In this document: in pieces, positions 21,786-28,849 of the stretch | How the letters are laid out: each line of letters opens with the position of its first letter | Numbering within the stretch: the first letter of the stretch is position 1 | Origin: Oscillatoria sp. FACHB-1407 | Lineage (GTDB): Bacteria; Cyanobacteriota; Cyanobacteriia; Elainellales; Elainellaceae | Reading direction: 5' to 3' | NCBI RefSeq assembly: GCF_014697545.1 | Contig: NZ_JACJSA010000002.1 | Location: forward strand, 62,001-126,000 | DNA: 64,000 nucleotides | Made by a program: the position numbers and the translations under genes | The notes under the pieces: model-generated | What the model was told of the DNA's origin: nothing | Databases searched by the model: none | The model's input: the letters and a program-made list of their open reading frames with translations, nothing else

Positions 21786-22379
21786 TTAGGGAGTCTGTTC
21801 GACTACGCGATCGATCAGTCCGTATTCTTTGGCTTCGTCAGCCGACATGAAATAGTCGCGATCGGTGTCTTTCTGAATCTGTTCAATGGTTTTGCCCGTG
21901 TGGTGCGCCAACATTTCGTTGAGTTCGCTCCGCATCCGCAAAATTTGCCGAGCTTCGATTTCGATGTCAGTCGCCTGACCCCGTGCACCGCCCAGCGGTT
22001 GGTGAATCATGATGCGTGAGTGGGGTAGAGCTAACCGCTTACCACGGCTACCTGCTGCGAGCAGAAACGCACCCATCGAAGCCGCTAGACCAACACAGAT
22101 CGTCACCACTTCGGATTTGATGTGCTGCATCGTGTCGTAGATTGCCATCCCTGCGGTGACAGAGCCACCGGGTGAGTTGATGTAGAGGTAGATGGGCTTG
22201 CTGGAGTCATCGGAATCGAGATAGAGCATATAGGCGACGATCGCATTGGCAATGCCATCATCGACTTCTTCTGCTAGGAAGATAATGCGCTCCCGAAAGA
22301 GCCGTTCATAAATGCTGATCCACTGCTCATAGGAGCTACCTGGAAGGCGATAGGGAACACTGGGGATACCGATAGGCAT
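21786..22379 (-). CDS. clpP: ATP-dependent Clp protease proteolytic subunit, active (ClpP3-like)
   Basis: 197 residues. The catalytic triad is complete: Ser101 in GLAASMGAF, His126 in [10 protein letters not shown] and Asp175 in [13 protein letters not shown]. The N-terminus ([14 protein letters not shown]) and the [12 protein letters not shown] handle match the cyanobacterial subunit partnered with ClpR. In cyanobacteria ClpP3 and ClpR form a mixed double ring driven by ClpC, an essential housekeeping protease. It is third in the order clpR, clpR-like, clpP on the minus strand with short gaps (19 and 51 bp), so a single operon is likely. Confidence 0.95.
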
Positions 22380-22430
22380 AGTTCTAAGGAGGGTAAGGAG
22401 TGTAGTGAATAGGAAGGAGTAGCCGTTGTC

Positions 22431-23099
22431 TCAAGACAGGGTACTGGCGAGCTTGGGTAGCTCTTTGGTGCTCTCTAAAACCCGGTCAATCAAGCCATAT
22501 TCCTTCGCTTCTTGAGGAGACATATAAAAGGTGCGATCGGTATCCTTGAGAATTTTATCAACCGATTGCCCTGTCTTCTGGGAGAAGATATCCAAAATTA
22601 ACGCCTTCTTCTCCAGCATCTCAGCAGCATTGACCTGAATATCCGTAGCTTGCCCCTGAGTGCCGAGTTTGGGTGTTTCCAAAGCAATCAGGGAATGGGG
22701 GAGACTGGCACGTTTTCCTTTGGAACCCGATGCCAGGATGAGAGCTGCCATCCCGACTGCTTGCCCTAAGCAGATGGTCAACACCTCTGACTTAATGTGT
22801 TGGATCGTGTCATACACCGCCAGTCCAGCCGTGATCGAAATCATTCCGGCAGTTACCGATGCCATGCCTGCGGCGATCGGGTCGCCCAGAGAATTGATAT
22901 AGAGGTAAATGGGCTTACTCTGGTCTTGCGACTCCAGATATAACATTCCAGAAATGAGTGAGTTCGCCACGCCATCGGTCAGGGGCTGATTGAGAAACAG
23001 GATACGCTCCTGGCTCAGCCGTGTATAGATGTTGATCCATTGCCAGTAGGGGCTACCGGGAATGTTGTACGGGACTCGCAAAATATCATCAACAGGCAT
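22431..23099 (-). CDS. Second ClpR-like, catalytically inactive Clp subunit with an insertion
   Basis: 222 residues. It is clearly ClpP-like, but all three catalytic residues are replaced: Ser to Gly116 (GQAVGMAAL), His to Glu141 (IALETPKL) and Asp to Thr190 (DTDRTFYM). Relative to ClpP it has about 14 extra residues before the handle, built of three 7-residue units (AAGMASV, TAGMISI, TAGLAVY). It sits between clpR and clpP, only 19 bp from clpR. It may be a structural subunit of a mixed ClpP/R ring. Similar inserted forms exist in other cyanobacteria as far as I recall. It is distinct from the clpR next to it. Confidence 0.85.
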   Translation of the reverse strand: MPVDDILRVPYNIPGSPYWQWINIYTRLSQERILFLNQPLTDGVANSLISGMLYLESQDQSKPIYLYINSLGDPIAAGMASVTAGMISITAGLAVYDTIQHIKSEVLTICLGQAVGMAALILASGSKGKRASLPHSLIALETPKLGTQGQATDIQVNAAEMLEKKALILDIFSQKTGQSVDKILKDTDRTFYMSPQEAKEYGLIDRVLESTKELPKLASTLS

Positions 23100-23118
23100 A
23101 GCAATGCTCTCAAACAGG

Positions 23119-23808
23119 TTAGATCAATGAAGGAACGGGAGTCGGCAGATCTTTAACCCCTTCTAAAACGCGATCGATCAGCCCGTATTCCTTTGCCTCC
23201 TGTGGGGTCAGGTAAAACATGCGATCGGTGTCTTTAGCAAGTTTTTCGGGGGACTGACCCGTATTTTTGGAGAAGATATCAAGGGTTGCGGCTCGGTTCG
23301 CCAAAACTTCTTTCGCCCGAATTTGAACATCGCTGGCCTGACTGCGTCCAAATCCTGTCTTGGGTTGATTGAGCACGATTGTGGCGTGGGGCAAGCTGGC
23401 GCGAAAGCCTTTGGTCCCAGCCGACAGGATCATGGCAGCTGTGCCCATGGCTTGACCGATGCAAATCGTATGGACGGGCGGCTTGATGTAGTTAATCGTG
23501 TCACAAATGGCAAAAGCTTCTGTTTCGTAGCCGATCGCCTCTCCGCCATACCAGGAAGTGCCTGTGGAGTTGATGTAGAAGAAGATGGGCTTCTCAGGAT
23601 CGTCAAATTGCAGGTACAACAACTGAGCAATAATCAGCTTGGTGACATCGACCCCCATCTGACGCTTGTAGTCATCGGACGAGACGAGGGGCAACCCCAG
23701 GTAAACAATACGCTCCTTCAAAAGCAGCGAAGGGAGATCAGGTGGGGGAGTCCGGTAGTAGGCATCCCCACCATAGTAATTCGATTGAACAGCCTTAATT
23801 GAACTCAT
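23119..23808 (-). CDS. clpR: Clp protease non-catalytic subunit ClpR
   Basis: 229 residues. It matches cyanobacterial ClpR: INSTGTSWYGGEAIGYETEAFAICDTINYIKPPVHTICIGQAMG is the family's signature region. The triad is lost: Ser to Gly122 (GQAMGTAAM), His to Asn147 (IVLNQPKTG) and Asp to Met197 (DTDRMFYL). ClpR joins ClpP3 in mixed rings and supports assembly but not cleavage. The first ~25 residues (SSIKAVQSNYYGGDAYYRTPPP) are the usual ClpR-specific extension. It heads the clpR, clpR-like, clpP operon. Confidence 0.93.
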   Translation of the reverse strand: MSSIKAVQSNYYGGDAYYRTPPPDLPSLLLKERIVYLGLPLVSSDDYKRQMGVDVTKLIIAQLLYLQFDDPEKPIFFYINSTGTSWYGGEAIGYETEAFAICDTINYIKPPVHTICIGQAMGTAAMILSAGTKGFRASLPHATIVLNQPKTGFGRSQASDVQIRAKEVLANRAATLDIFSKNTGQSPEKLAKDTDRMFYLTPQEAKEYGLIDRVLEGVKDLPTPVPSLI

Positions 23809-24247: not shown

Positions 24248-24622
24248 ATGTCCTCTGGTAACATCAAGCTGACGATCGCCTTTATTGACCCTGACCTCGA
24301 TTTGGACGAACGCGAGGAGCAGACGCAACGCTTCATCGCTGAATTGAAGGAATTGGATGAAATTAATACGGTCGATCGCGTGCCTGATCCCAATCCACCG
24401 GAAGGCAATAAAGCGATCGCCAGTTTTTTGATGGGTATTTTGACCACCGAGGTGAATCCTGCAAATGCCGCAAAATTACTGGGGTTTCTGGGCGATCGCC
24501 TGGGCAATAAACCGATTGAGCTATCAGTAGAAGGTAACGGTAAGAAGCTGTCTGTGAAAGCCAGTAGCCGTGAAGAGTTAACTGCTGCCATCCAAGCTGA
24601 CAAAGAGTTTATTGATGGCTAG
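24248..24622 (+). CDS. EACC1-like small protein (effector-associated constant component)
   Basis: 124 residues. The plan fits the EACC1 family described in surveys of bacterial conflict systems. A first strand (IKLTIAFIDP) is followed by an acidic helix (QTQRFIAELKEL), a Pro/Gly-containing turn (DPNPPEGNKA), a long hydrophobic helix and the LGFLGDRLGNKPIELSVEGNGKKLSVKASSREEL strand pair. EACC1 is usually found next to an effector gene such as a caspase-like peptidase, and here the next gene (5 nt later) is exactly that. The assignment rests on pattern and context, not on a search. Its role is unknown; it may couple recognition to effector activation. No signal peptide or membrane segment. Confidence 0.65.
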   Translation: MSSGNIKLTIAFIDPDLDLDEREEQTQRFIAELKELDEINTVDRVPDPNPPEGNKAIASFLMGILTTEVNPANAAKLLGFLGDRLGNKPIELSVEGNGKKLSVKASSREELTAAIQADKEFIDG

Positions 24623-24627
24623 ATGAC

Positions 24628-26649
24628 ATGAGCAAGATCGCGTTACTGATTGGGGTCAGCGAGTATGAACCAGTGCTAGAGCCGTTGCCATCTGCGGTTA
24701 AGGATGTGGTGGCTCTGCAAGAGGTGTTAGCCCATCCAGAGATGGGTGAGTTTAATGCAGCAGATATTACTGTGCTACAAAACCCTGATAGGCAAACAAT
24801 GGAAACGGCAATCTATACCTTGTTTGCTAATCGTCAAAAAGACGATCTAGTGTTGTTGTACTTTTCTGGGCATGGTGTGCTGGACGATAGCAGCGAGTTT
24901 TACTTTGCTAGCCGCTCAACGAGAAAAGATCAGGGAAAATTGGTGCCTCCAACAGCAGTGGCGGCGCGATCAGTACAAGGTTGGATGGAGCAAAGTCGAT
25001 CGCAGCGGCAGGTAATCATTCTCGACAGTTGCTTTAGTGGAGCCTTTGCCAAAGGCGTTAAAGCGAAAGACAGTGGCAGCGTTAACCTGGAACAATTATT
25101 GGGCGGCAAAGGCAGAGCCATTCTCACCGCTTCAACCTCGACCCAATATGCCCTAACGCAAGAAGGACTGGAGCTGTCAGTCTACACTCACTATTTGGTG
25201 GAGGGCATTCGCACAGGTGGGGCAGACCAGGATGACGATGGTTGGATTGCGGCAGACGAACTGCATACCTATGCCAGCAGTAAGGTTAGGGAAGCAGCTC
25301 CTGCCATGACACCAGAGTTTTATCCAGTGAAGGAGGGTTACAAAATCCTGCTGGCAAAGTCGCCTAAAGATGATCCGCAATTGAAATATCGCAAACAAGT
25401 CAAACAGTTAGCCGAAGAAGATGAAGGTAATTTCTCTTTTATCAATCGTGAATATTTGTTTGAATTGCAGCGTAGCTTGGGCTTGTCGATAGAAGTTGCG
25501 ACCGCCATTGAAAATGAGGAGCTAGAACCCTTTCGCCAACGTCAAGCCAAAGTCGATCGCTATCGAGCAGTGTTTGCTGGTGCGATCGCCCATCGATTTC
25601 CGTTAACGCCACGCGATCGCGCTGGGTTACAGCGGCTACAACAGCTTCTTAGTCTGCGAGATGAGGATATTGAAGCGATCGAAGCTCCTATTCTTGCTGC
25701 CAAGCAGGCTGAGACAGGACAAATAAGCCAGCCCACCTCCCCTCCACGCGATCGCAAACAGGCTGATTTTTTTGCCGAAGACCTGGGCAATGGCATAACG
25801 CTAGACATGGCCAGGATTCCGGCAGGGGAGTTTTTGATAGGGACGGCAGATGGCGATCGCGCTACTATTATTCAAGAATACACACGGCATGGAGCAAAAC
25901 AGGAGGATGTAGAGCGATGGATATCTTGGGAAATACCTCAGCATCGCGTAACTGTGCCTGAATTTTGGCTGGGTAAGTTTGCCGTCACTCAAGCTCAGTG
26001 GAAGCAGGTTGCAGAGTTACCCAAAGTTAAGTTTGATCTCAATCCCGATCCATCCAACTTTAAAGGGGCAAAGCGTCCGGCCGAGCAAGTATCGTGGGAT
26101 GAAGCAGTGGAGTTTTGCGATCGTCTCAACGGCTTCGTAGAAGCTCGCCTTTCTAAAAAAACAGGCAGAACCTATCGCCTGCCCACCGAAGCCGAATGGG
26201 AATATGCCTGTCGCGCTGGAACCACCACTCCTTTCCATTTTGGAGACACCGTAACCACCGAGCTAGTGAACTGCAATGGCAATTACCCCTACGGCAATGC
26301 TCCCGGAGGCGAGTATCGATCGCAAACAACAGAGGTCGGTAGCTTTCCCGCTAATGCCTTTGGGCTATACGATATGCACGGCAATGTCTGGGAGTGGTGT
26401 GCCGATCAGTGGTATGACAGCTATGCCAATAAACCAGAGCAACTAAAGCAGAATGGGGCGATCGCCTGGACGGAGGAAATTACGGGAATAGCACCAACCG
26501 ACAATAAAAATTACCGCCTCCTGCGCGGTGGTTCGTGGCGCAGCAATCCGAGGAACTGCCGCTCCGCTAATCGCAACTGGTTCGCGCGCGACTCTCGTCT
26601 CAACTTCATCGGTTTTCGGGTTGTTTGTTCTATTCCGAGGGCTCTTTAA
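24628..26649 (+). CDS. Caspase-like peptidase fused to an FGE-sulfatase/C-type-lectin domain; probable DGR variable protein
   Basis: 673 residues. Residues ~3-245 are a caspase/metacaspase fold with the catalytic His82 (YFSGHG) and Cys135 (LDSCFSG), so it looks active. A helical linker (~255-355) follows. Residues ~388-668 are an FGE-sulfatase (SUMF) C-type-lectin fold: MARIPAGEFLIGT, WLGKFAVTQAQW, RLPTEAEWEYACRAG, YDMHGNVWEWCADQW. The end, LLRGGSWRSNPRNCRSANRN then ARDSRLNFIGFRVVC, has the layout of the variable region in targets of diversity-generating retroelements. The CxxxxC copper pair of true formylglycine enzymes is absent (one Cys, NCRSA), which suggests binding instead of catalysis. 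With the EACC1-like gene 5 nt upstream it forms a likely two-gene recognition/suicide module (inference). Confidence 0.88.
   Translation: MSKIALLIGVSEYEPVLEPLPSAVKDVVALQEVLAHPEMGEFNAADITVLQNPDRQTMETAIYTLFANRQKDDLVLLYFSGHGVLDDSSEFYFASRSTRKDQGKLVPPTAVAARSVQGWMEQSRSQRQVIILDSCFSGAFAKGVKAKDSGSVNLEQLLGGKGRAILTASTSTQYALTQEGLELSVYTHYLVEGIRTGGADQDDDGWIAADELHTYASSKVREAAPAMTPEFYPVKEGYKILLAKSPKDDPQLKYRKQVKQLAEEDEGNFSFINREYLFELQRSLGLSIEVATAIENEELEPFRQRQAKVDRYRAVFAGAIAHRFPLTPRDRAGLQRLQQLLSLRDEDIEAIEAPILAAKQAETGQISQPTSPPRDRKQADFFAEDLGNGITLDMARIPAGEFLIGTADGDRATIIQEYTRHGAKQEDVERWISWEIPQHRVTVPEFWLGKFAVTQAQWKQVAELPKVKFDLNPDPSNFKGAKRPAEQVSWDEAVEFCDRLNGFVEARLSKKTGRTYRLPTEAEWEYACRAGTTTPFHFGDTVTTELVNCNGNYPYGNAPGGEYRSQTTEVGSFPANAFGLYDMHGNVWEWCADQWYDSYANKPEQLKQNGAIAWTEEITGIAPTDNKNYRLLRGGSWRSNPRNCRSANRNWFARDSRLNFIGFRVVCSIPRAL
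26527..26625 (+). other. Candidate DGR variable region (VR)
   Basis: This 3' segment encodes Gly634 to about Gly662-Phe663 of the lectin fold. Surface positions (R638, S639, W651, F652, A653, R654, S656, R657, L658, F660) use codons such as CGC, AGC, TTC, CTC, TCT. Most of these could arise from AAY asparagine codons by changing only the two adenines. Invariant motifs (GGSW, NPRNCRSANRN, IGFRVVC) flank them. Adenine-directed change is the DGR hallmark. No template repeat or reverse transcriptase is visible in the window, so the call rests on pattern only. Confidence 0.55.
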
Positions 26650-26659
26650 ACTTTATACT

Positions 26660-26860
26660 CTTTCCCCTCGTTCCCAGGCTCCGCCTGGGAATGCTCAAGT
26701 AGCGGCTCTGCCGCTTGATTTCAGAAGAGGCAGAGCCTCAAAATCATGTTCCCAGGCAGAGCCTGAGGAACGAGCAGTTGTTTCTCCCTCGTTTTCAGGT
26801 AGAGCCTGAAAAGGCTGTCGGTTTGAGGTAGCGGCTACGTCTGGGAATGCTAATCGTGAG
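26660..26860. repeat. REP-like palindromes upstream of the transposase
   Basis: Several inverted repeats occur: TTCCCAGGC/GCCTGGGAA at 26672-26692, AGCGGCTCTGCCGCT at 26701-26715, a CAGGCAGAGCCTG core in TTCCCAGGCAGAGCCTGAGGAA at 26749-26771, and TTTTCAGGTAGAGCCTGAAAA near 26794. Similar palindromes follow the transposase gene. They match REP sequences mobilised by RAYT-type transposases. Confidence 0.75.
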
Positions 26861-26892: not shown

Positions 26893-27426
26893 ATGGGACG
26901 TAGCCGTTACCGCTTCCTAGACCAACATCCTCATTTCTTAACCTGCACTGTTGTCAATTGGCTTCCCCTATTAAGTAATCCGGAACTGGTTCAAATCCTT
27001 TTCGATTCCCTCATTTTTCTACACACTCACCAACGCATCGCCCTACACGGCTATGTCGTTATGGAAAACCATCTCCATCTGATTGCATCGTCTAACAAAT
27101 TGTCAAAAGAAATAAGGACATTTAAATCATTTACAGCCCGTTCGATCGTGGATTGGCTTCAGGCAAATAATAAGACACATTGGCTGACTCAACTCGCGTT
27201 TTATAAAAAAGCGCACAAACTAGAGCAAGATTACCAGGTTTGGCAAGAGGGTTCACATCCGCAAGCCCTATTAACGGTAGAGATGTTTCAGCAGAAATTA
27301 GAGTATGTGCATCATAATCCCGTCTGTAGAGGGTATGTGGATGATCCAGGGCATTGGCGTTATTCTAGCTACCGGGACTACCACGAGCAGAAGGGGCTTT
27401 TGCCGATTGTGTTTCTAGAGCTTTAG
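26893..27426 (+). CDS. REP-associated tyrosine transposase (IS200/TnpA-REP like, RAYT)
   Basis: 177 residues. The HUH motif is present as ENHLHLI, after the usual GYVVM strand. The N-terminus GRSRYRFLDQHPHFLTCTVV and the C-terminal KLEYVHHNPVCRGYV...HWRYSS block match the Y1 transposase family that processes REP elements. The usual WQ-x-x-(F/Y)Y region reads WQEGSHPQAL, so the catalytic Tyr may instead be the Tyr of QDYQVWQ. REP palindromes lie on both sides, which supports a RAYT. It is probably domesticated and moves REPs rather than itself. It lies ~240 bp after the caspase-lectin gene. Confidence 0.88.
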   Translation: MGRSRYRFLDQHPHFLTCTVVNWLPLLSNPELVQILFDSLIFLHTHQRIALHGYVVMENHLHLIASSNKLSKEIRTFKSFTARSIVDWLQANNKTHWLTQLAFYKKAHKLEQDYQVWQEGSHPQALLTVEMFQQKLEYVHHNPVCRGYVDDPGHWRYSSYRDYHEQKGLLPIVFLEL

Positions 27427-27434
27427 AAGAGAAA

Positions 27435-27486
27435 AAGGCGGAGGCAGAGCCTCTAAAACGGCATTTCCAGGCAGAGCCTGGAAACG
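27435..27486. repeat. REP-like palindromes downstream of the transposase
   Basis: GGAGGCAGAGCCTCT followed by TTTCCAGGCAGAGCCTGGAAA is a two-hairpin unit with the same GGCAGAGCC core as the upstream repeats. Together they frame the transposase gene. Confidence 0.75.
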
Positions 27487-27610: not shown

Positions 27611-28849
27611 ATGAAGGTGGGACTGCAAGCGGCACTGAACGATGCCAATTTGGACGCTGCCCAGGCGAGTAGCCAACGGCAGATGGCAGTCTCCATTTCA
27701 GCGATCGCAGATTCGGTGGGTCGTACGGCTTCCCTCAATCTCTGCTTGATTCTCGATCACAGCGGTTCGATGAATGGGCGACCGTTGGAGACGGTCAAGC
27801 AAGCCGCCCACCGAATTGTAGATAGCTTGTCTCCGGGCGATCGCATCTCGATTGTGGTGTTTGACCACAAAGCAAAAGTACTCGTTCCCAATCAGGTGAT
27901 TGAAAACCCTGCTGGTATTAAGGTCGAGATCAACAAGCTCAAAGCCAGTGGGGGTACGGCGATCGACGAAGGAATGCGATTGGGTGTCGAAGAGATGGCA
28001 AAGGGCAAACGCGACACGATTTCGCAAGCGTTCCTTTTGACCGATGGCGAAAATGAGCATGGCGATAACGATCGCTGCCTGAAACTGGCGGAACTTGCCG
28101 CAGGCTATAACCTCACCATCAATACCTTTGGATTTGGCGACCACTGGAACCAGGACATTCTGGAGAAGATTGCAGATGCGGGTGGTGGGACGCTGTCCTA
28201 CATTCAACAACCGGAAGAAGCCGTGAGTGAGTTTAGCCGTTTGTTTAGCCGGATTCAATCGGTGGGATTAACCAATGCACACCTGTTGATCTCATTGGCT
28301 CCTTACGTGAGACTGGCAGAACTTAAGCCGATCGCCCAGGTTGTACCCGACACGATTGAGCTACCCCTGATGAAGGAAGGGCATCAATTTATGGTGAGAT
28401 TGGGCGATCTCATGATTGATACGCCTCGTGTTGTGTTAGCTAATCTATACGCCAGTCAGCTACCGGAAGGCAAACAGGCGATCGCTCATCTTCAGGTGCG
28501 CTATGACGATCCAGCCCAGAATCGCGAGGGATTGCTGTCTGACACGATTATTGTGGATGCCAATGTGTTGAGCCAGTTTCAATCAGACCCTAATGCTCAG
28601 GTACAGCAGCATGTGTTAGCCCTCGCTAAATATCGCCAGACTCAAATTGCGGAGGTCAAACTACAACAGGGCGATCGCGCTGGAGCCGCAACCATGCTGC
28701 AATCGGCGGCAAAAACAGCTCTGCAAATGGGCGATCAAAATGCGGCAACGGTGTTGCAAAAGAGCGCAACGGTATTGCAATCGGGGGAAGAGTTGTCAGA
28801 GAGCGATCGCAAGAAGACTCGAATTGTGTCCAAAACAATTTTGCAGTAG
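27611..28849 (+). CDS. Von Willebrand factor A domain protein
   Basis: 412 residues. The vWA domain (about 40-215) has a complete metal-ion-dependent adhesion site: DHSGSM, the Thr in ASGGTAIDEG, and the Asp in LLTDGENEHGD. It is a TerD-free, soluble form with no signal peptide, so it acts in the cytoplasm. The C-terminal part (~220-400) has beta-strands followed by helices rich in Ala/Gln (QQGDRAGAATMLQSAAKTALQMG). A good AGGAG site precedes the ATG by ten bases. Such proteins are protein-binding scaffolds often paired with AAA ATPases, Ser/Thr kinases or conflict modules. It lies near the caspase/EACC1 pair, but a functional link is only inferred. Confidence 0.9.
   Translation: MKVGLQAALNDANLDAAQASSQRQMAVSISAIADSVGRTASLNLCLILDHSGSMNGRPLETVKQAAHRIVDSLSPGDRISIVVFDHKAKVLVPNQVIENPAGIKVEINKLKASGGTAIDEGMRLGVEEMAKGKRDTISQAFLLTDGENEHGDNDRCLKLAELAAGYNLTINTFGFGDHWNQDILEKIADAGGGTLSYIQQPEEAVSEFSRLFSRIQSVGLTNAHLLISLAPYVRLAELKPIAQVVPDTIELPLMKEGHQFMVRLGDLMIDTPRVVLANLYASQLPEGKQAIAHLQVRYDDPAQNREGLLSDTIIVDANVLSQFQSDPNAQVQQHVLALAKYRQTQIAEVKLQQGDRAGAATMLQSAAKTALQMGDQNAATVLQKSATVLQSGEELSESDRKKTRIVSKTILQ

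Follow-up and report, generated by a model that had tools for sequence, protein, structure and literature searches.

A probable fossil DGR variable region in a caspase–C-type-lectin gene of Oscillatoria sp. FACHB-1407

The 3′ end of a gene for a caspase–C-type-lectin sensor in Oscillatoria sp. FACHB-1407 is probably a fossil DGR variable region (VR), left over from an ancestral locus of target, avd, reverse transcriptase (RT) and template repeat (TR) that lost its machinery, and the gene is now followed by a RAYT/REP unit. It lies in a 64,000-nucleotide stretch of one contig, hereafter the window. A sequence-only reading of this stretch had offered two interpretations of the segment, a target served in trans or a relic frozen after RT loss. 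Our analysis supports the relic: the adenine-specific signature is present, RT, avd, TR and TR RNA are absent from an assembly of 100% completeness, and sister loci in relatives have decayed to avd and RT remnants.

A variable region with an adenine signature

The target gene (24628-26649, + strand) is an intact open reading frame of 673 aa, in which Pfam searches identify a Peptidase_C14 domain (PF00656, E 1.3e-18) and, C-terminally, an FGE-sulfatase/C-type-lectin domain (PF03781, E 1.8e-47). The caspase-like p20 domain spans residues 3-225 and retains both catalytic motifs, SGHG and DSCFSG, while the lectin domain spans residues 393-666; a structure model (pLDDT 81) did no more than confirm the FGE/C-type-lectin fold. 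The protein is thus built like cyanobacterial variable proteins, with an orthocaspase as its N-terminal signalling/effector domain, a C-terminal C-type-lectin/FGE domain and the VR close to the 3′ end of the gene. Upstream lies a small gene of 124 aa (24248-24622, + strand), which blastn finds kept beside the target in two loci of relatives, L057 and L058. Its L057 homologue weakly matches PF19953 (EACC1, effector-associated constant component 1), with an E of 0.005 that falls short of the family cut-off. Three tandem ClpP-like genes are found at 21786-23808, also upstream of the target. Plasmid records hold FGE/caspase relatives of the target only at <60% identity and are uninformative for the FACHB-1407 strain; a scan of a contig collection by target domain was set aside, the conserved peptides being too general and cyanobacteria few.

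The VR (26527-26625, + strand) is the RGGSW ... IGFRVV part of the C-terminus. Its peptide, RGGSW RSN P RN CRSAN RN WFARDSRLNF IGFRVVCSIPRAL, forms the C-terminal end of the FGE-sulfatase/C-type-lectin domain, with the codons CGC AGC AAT CCG AGG AAC TGC CGC TCC GCT AAT CGC AAC TGG TTC GCG CGC GAC TCT CGT CTC AAC TTC. The remaining 3′ end of the target (26626-26649, + strand) terminates in CCGAGGGCTCTTTAA and is IMH-like; comparison with the BPP-1 IMH suggests its role. In alignments, target VRs typically read CCGAGGACTCTT at this end, and templates read CGAGTACTCTT or CGAGCACTCTT.

For comparison we used 35 relatives of the same family. The closest homologues of the target occur in G020 (locus L058) and G021 (locus L057), with 73-76% identity over the domain and a TR beside the target; in both loci this TR is a non-coding copy, RGGSWNNNPRNCRSANRNRNLR(N/D)NRNNNIGFRVVC, downstream of the target. 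Measured against the G020 copy as reference TR, 13/27 template adenines are changed in the VR, compared with 11/78 other bases (Fisher p=0.0006). Within the core alone, the changes affect 12/25 adenines and 2/21 non-adenine first or second codon positions (p=0.005). The 11 non-adenine differences, which are counted against the TR of another species and not against the VR's own true template, fall mostly at third codon positions (in the core, two at first or second positions and five at third). Against relatives' TRs, the VR therefore differs at adenines as expected of a functional DGR, with mostly third-position drift elsewhere. The adenine-directed change claimed from the sequence is real, but it is partial, as about half of the template adenines stand unmutated (AAT, AGG AAC, AAT CGC AAC).

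Codon endings provide a second line of evidence. At template AAY positions, 11/11 codons of the window VR end in C or T, which alone is only suggestive (P=0.048; NNY expectations were conditioned on the amino acids and on local codon usage). Across the five FGE paralogues of the genome, however, 55/55 template-AAY codons end in this way, against 42.7 expected (P=2e-9); over the rest of the domain in the same paralogues, 128 NNY codons are observed vs 124.8 expected. The five comprise the window gene on contig C2, one gene each on C4 (L061) and C19 (L060), and two adjacent genes on C40 (L059, G000:C40). The DGR-like codons that the sequence-only reading had pointed out are as described. Given the A-specific VR/TR differences and the NNY signature in all five paralogues, 26527-26625 is a true DGR target and belongs to a class already described in cyanobacteria (PMC7517822).

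Outside the window, the four sister paralogues lie on three other contigs, and all have NNY codons at template positions. We report them as more frozen variable regions.

Absence of DGR machinery from the assembly

The searched assembly is an 8.13 Mb draft of 66 contigs with a completeness of 100%. No RVT_1 was found in it, and a DGR-RT profile had zero matches at E<=10. The same profile was positive in nine relatives (G004, G008, G010, G011, G017, G020, G021, G028, G031), with a best E of about 1e-220; absence of RT in relatives is defined by the RVT_1 search together with the DGR-RT profile at E<=1e-20. No avd was found in the assembly by a search that was positive in eight relatives, all of them RT-bearing. 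With the VR as query, only other targets and no template rose above noise, and with a relative's TR as query, the window VR was the sole match and no TR DNA was recovered. A covariance model of the TR RNA (R1) had matches at E<1e-20 in 17 relatives, while in the FACHB-1407 genome it found no TR RNA, the best match (E=3.74) being rejected as noise. DGR searches were therefore positive in 8 to 17 of the 35 relatives, and RT, avd and a TR with A-rich codons, the components of a functional DGR, are all lacking from the assembly. TRs from related genomes match the window VR at 75-77% identity over 133 bp; the rule for remote targets (PMC7517822) calls for a TR of >50% identity in the same genome, and the assembly contains none. 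It is unlikely that a DGR locus is hidden in a gap of the 66-contig draft.

The earlier observation that neither an RT nor a near-copy of the VR occurs within the 64 kb thus holds, and it is true of the whole assembly as well, since the proposed genome-wide search for a DGR RT and an A-rich repeat of ~100 bp found neither. The sequence-only reading had also stated that a complete genome lacking both, together with an identical site in all relatives, would speak against it. The first half of this is what we observe, and it argues against an active system only, not against a relic. The VR sequence is known from one strain, the sole genome of its genus in the comparison set.

The RAYT/REP unit and decayed loci in relatives

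About 20 bp past the stop codon lies a REP-like palindrome (26671-26691, TTCCCAGGC-TCC-GCCTGGGAA), at a place where relatives have a C/T tract and a GCGC hairpin. A second REP-like palindrome, TTTTCAGG-TAGAG-CCTGAAAA, is found at 26792-26812, and another, TTTCCAGGC-AGA-GCCTGGAAA, closes the unit at 27464-27484. The open reading frame that these REPs flank (26893-27426, + strand, 177 aa) appears to be RAYT-like, with a Y1_Tnp match (E 0.003) that falls below the Pfam cut-off. RAYTs are REP-associated Y1 transposases. The unit occupies the place of avd-RT-TR in intact loci, and no avd, RT or TR remnants are present in the window, where weak avd and RT fragments (E>1) were rejected as noise. Directly after the RAYT unit is a gene with a vWA domain (27611-28849); vWA partners have been reported for clade 5E DGR systems (PMC10907252).

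The window VR also lacks the hairpin or cruciform that a functional DGR would be expected to have on the 3′ side of the VR, and the REP-like palindrome stands there instead. Among RT-bearing genomes, a GC-rich hairpin follows the end of the variable core at a distance of 76-147 nt in 12/20 VRs, compared with 1.8% of random stretches. Efficient homing in BPP-1 is known to depend on such a hairpin (PMC3240598). A paralogue VR on C40 does have a 3′ hairpin.

The intact order target-avd-RT-TR is seen in relatives at L067, L062 and L302. At L057 and L058, the avd match ends after residue 59 and the RT is left only as residues 327-366, while a RAYT and REP palindromes lie between the two remnants (L057:8144-9449, L058:3468-4773) and the TR is intact. 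Judged from this arrangement, most of avd and RT has given way, at the same locus, to a RAYT/REP transposase unit, and these sister loci show RT loss in progress. The target-RAYT-TR block is 94% alike between them, and their downstream neighbours differ. The RAYT unit of the window is different from theirs and is bordered by other palindromes (the L057 RAYT is bordered by AGATCTGCGACTTCT/AGAAGTCGCAGATCT). The same end state as in the window is shown by G030, a closed genome of one contig whose target is orthologous to that of its RT-bearing congener G031 (87-89% DNA identity). In its VR, 14/24 adenines of the G031 TR are changed, along with 3/81 other bases; its avd-RT-TR block is gone, and a transposase-like open reading frame lies within the target gene.

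TR RNA, RT-less pairs and collapsed targets

The ~160 nt 3′ of cyanobacterial DGR TRs constitute a conserved, structured RNA with compensatory changes in 29/41 pairs. Alignment A4 and model R1 were built from L067:9939-10104 and 13 homologues; L250, a coding C-terminus without scaffold, was left out of R1 though first in the TR pattern list. Rfam yielded no match for the TR RNA in the five loci tested. This covarying RNA offers a search handle for DGR templates that does not need the RT.

VR/TR pairs without RT occur in three genera (L066:6786-7558 in G005, L065:7289-7842 in G009 and L064:6353-6885 in G022). All VR/TR differences within each pair fall on adenines (0/78-83 other bases), and in these genomes neither a DGR RT nor avd was detected, G005 being without any RVT_1. 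The RT might have been lost recently three times, might reside on a missing replicon, or might be of an unrecognised kind; we prefer none of these options. Five genomes, all without DGR RT, contain collapsed targets, in which the open reading frame runs straight into the TR RNA scaffold (L280/L300 in G029, L283/L304 in G015, L285/L303 in G026, L286 in G032 and L284 in G033). In G029, which is closed in one contig and has no RVT_1, the C-terminus of the collapsed target is the unmutated template NNNPRNCRSANRNRNLPDNRNNN. Collapsed targets are what one would expect if VR and TR had recombined and the RT between them had been deleted in the process. They are found in 5/27 RT-less genomes vs 0/9 RT-bearing ones, a contrast that is not significant (p=0.30). 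Neither TR RNA in genomes lacking a DGR RT nor collapsed targets are described in the open-access literature searched; their novelty is unproven.

Origin of the frozen variable region

Adenine-mutagenic retrohoming would have diversified the C-terminal, ligand-binding lectin face in an ancestor whose locus had the order target-avd-RT-TR. The lineage of FACHB-1407 would later have lost avd, RT and TR, plausibly via RAYT/REP activity, and the last VR written would persist as a putative, fixed binding site. The gene is intact in other respects, and the caspase to which this surface is coupled has kept its two catalytic motifs. Because the window is without avd, RT or TR remnants, it is the sister loci that suggest that this locus itself once held avd-RT-TR, and the RAYT unit may have had a part in the removal. 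The target protein presumably still works, with fixed specificity, and by analogy with described systems (PMC7517822, PMC10907252) its lectin–caspase coupling might serve cell death or defence.

We consider it unlikely that the locus never had a DGR of its own, the gene having either been diversified before it arrived by horizontal transfer or been a remote target from the start. Such an origin would fit the lack of remnants in the window, and target cassettes do change context, as the shared block of L057 and L058 illustrates. However, four more signature-bearing paralogues on three other contigs point to a resident, once active DGR, and the upstream gene has been conserved alongside the target at loci where avd and RT survive as remnants. 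Less probable still is a target that remains live because a gap in the assembly, or a replicon missing from it, contains the RT and TR that serve it in trans. The assembly does consist of 66 contigs, plasmid-borne cyanobacterial DGRs are known (PMC7517822), and RT-less assemblies can hold active-looking pairs, because three RT-less relatives have adenine-only VR/TR differences. Nonetheless, the template is missing too, by both DNA and RNA model, as are avd and the 3′ hairpin common beside VRs of RT-bearing relatives. The trans-served half of the sequence-only reading is therefore unsupported, since RT, avd, TR and TR-RNA scaffold are all lacking from the assembly. That the gene is an ordinary FGE/C-type-lectin paralogue whose adenine pattern reflects ordinary divergence at exposed positions is hardly credible: probable non-DGR family members do vary at the same positions (e.g. 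NSSPRACRSAFRSKLDS), but this account is contradicted by the NNY bias in all five paralogues given their amino acids, by A-specific differences from an actual TR found at a locus of this type, and by the 72-76% domain identity to targets with an adjoining TR.

Beyond the fossil VR of the window, we tentatively raise the possibility that DGRs of this cyanobacterial family have repeatedly been switched off by at least two routes, the frozen receptors then being kept as fixed-specificity sensors (diversification, then fixation). One route would be RAYT/REP replacement of avd-RT, as in L057, L058 and, probably, the window. The other would be VR-TR recombination that deletes the RT and fuses the target to the TR RNA scaffold, as in G029 (closed), G015, G026, G032 and G033.

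DGR surveys miss genomes that keep only targets or templates, because they start from the reverse transcriptase. The window offers a putative receptor frozen in one version, and its relatives illustrate how such DGR systems get switched off. Together they can be arranged in grades, from intact loci through loci whose RT is replaced while the template is kept, and targets fused to the template scaffold, to a target on its own; this makes the fate of these systems after an optimal variant has been found a testable question.

Comparison with known systems

Remnant targets without a nearby RT, such as all3226 (PMC7517822), and degenerate loci in Thiohalocapsa, for which other loci in that genome apparently provide complementation in trans (PMC10907252), are already known; what the window contributes is an example where the machinery is missing from the entire assembly. 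The all3226 protein of Nostoc sp. PCC 7120 is a remote or remnant DGR variable protein paralogue, and N-terminal orthocaspase domains have been described among cyanobacterial DGR variable proteins (PMC7517822). Like all3226, the window target has a C-terminal C-type-lectin domain and remnant TR-VR homology, with no RT adjoining. Unlike FACHB-1407, whose assembly is without RT or TR, PCC 7120 keeps two DGR RTs elsewhere. Cyanobacterial DGRs of RT clade 5E are proposed antigen sensors of conflict systems (PMC10907252); the window resembles them in having a caspase/TIR-type effector domain with the target and an adaptor-like gene beside it, and differs in that its machinery is missing. The IMH-like end and, in relatives, the hairpin 3′ of the VR recall the target site of Bordetella phage BPP-1 (PMC3240598), although the hairpin of this family lies 76-147 nt past the variable core and is absent in the window. 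Finally, the lectin domain shares its FGE-type C-type-lectin fold with the DGR variable protein TvpA of Treponema denticola (PDB 2y3c), and the VR aligns to the same C-terminal stretch; TvpA stands alone, whereas the lectin domain of the window is fused to a caspase domain.
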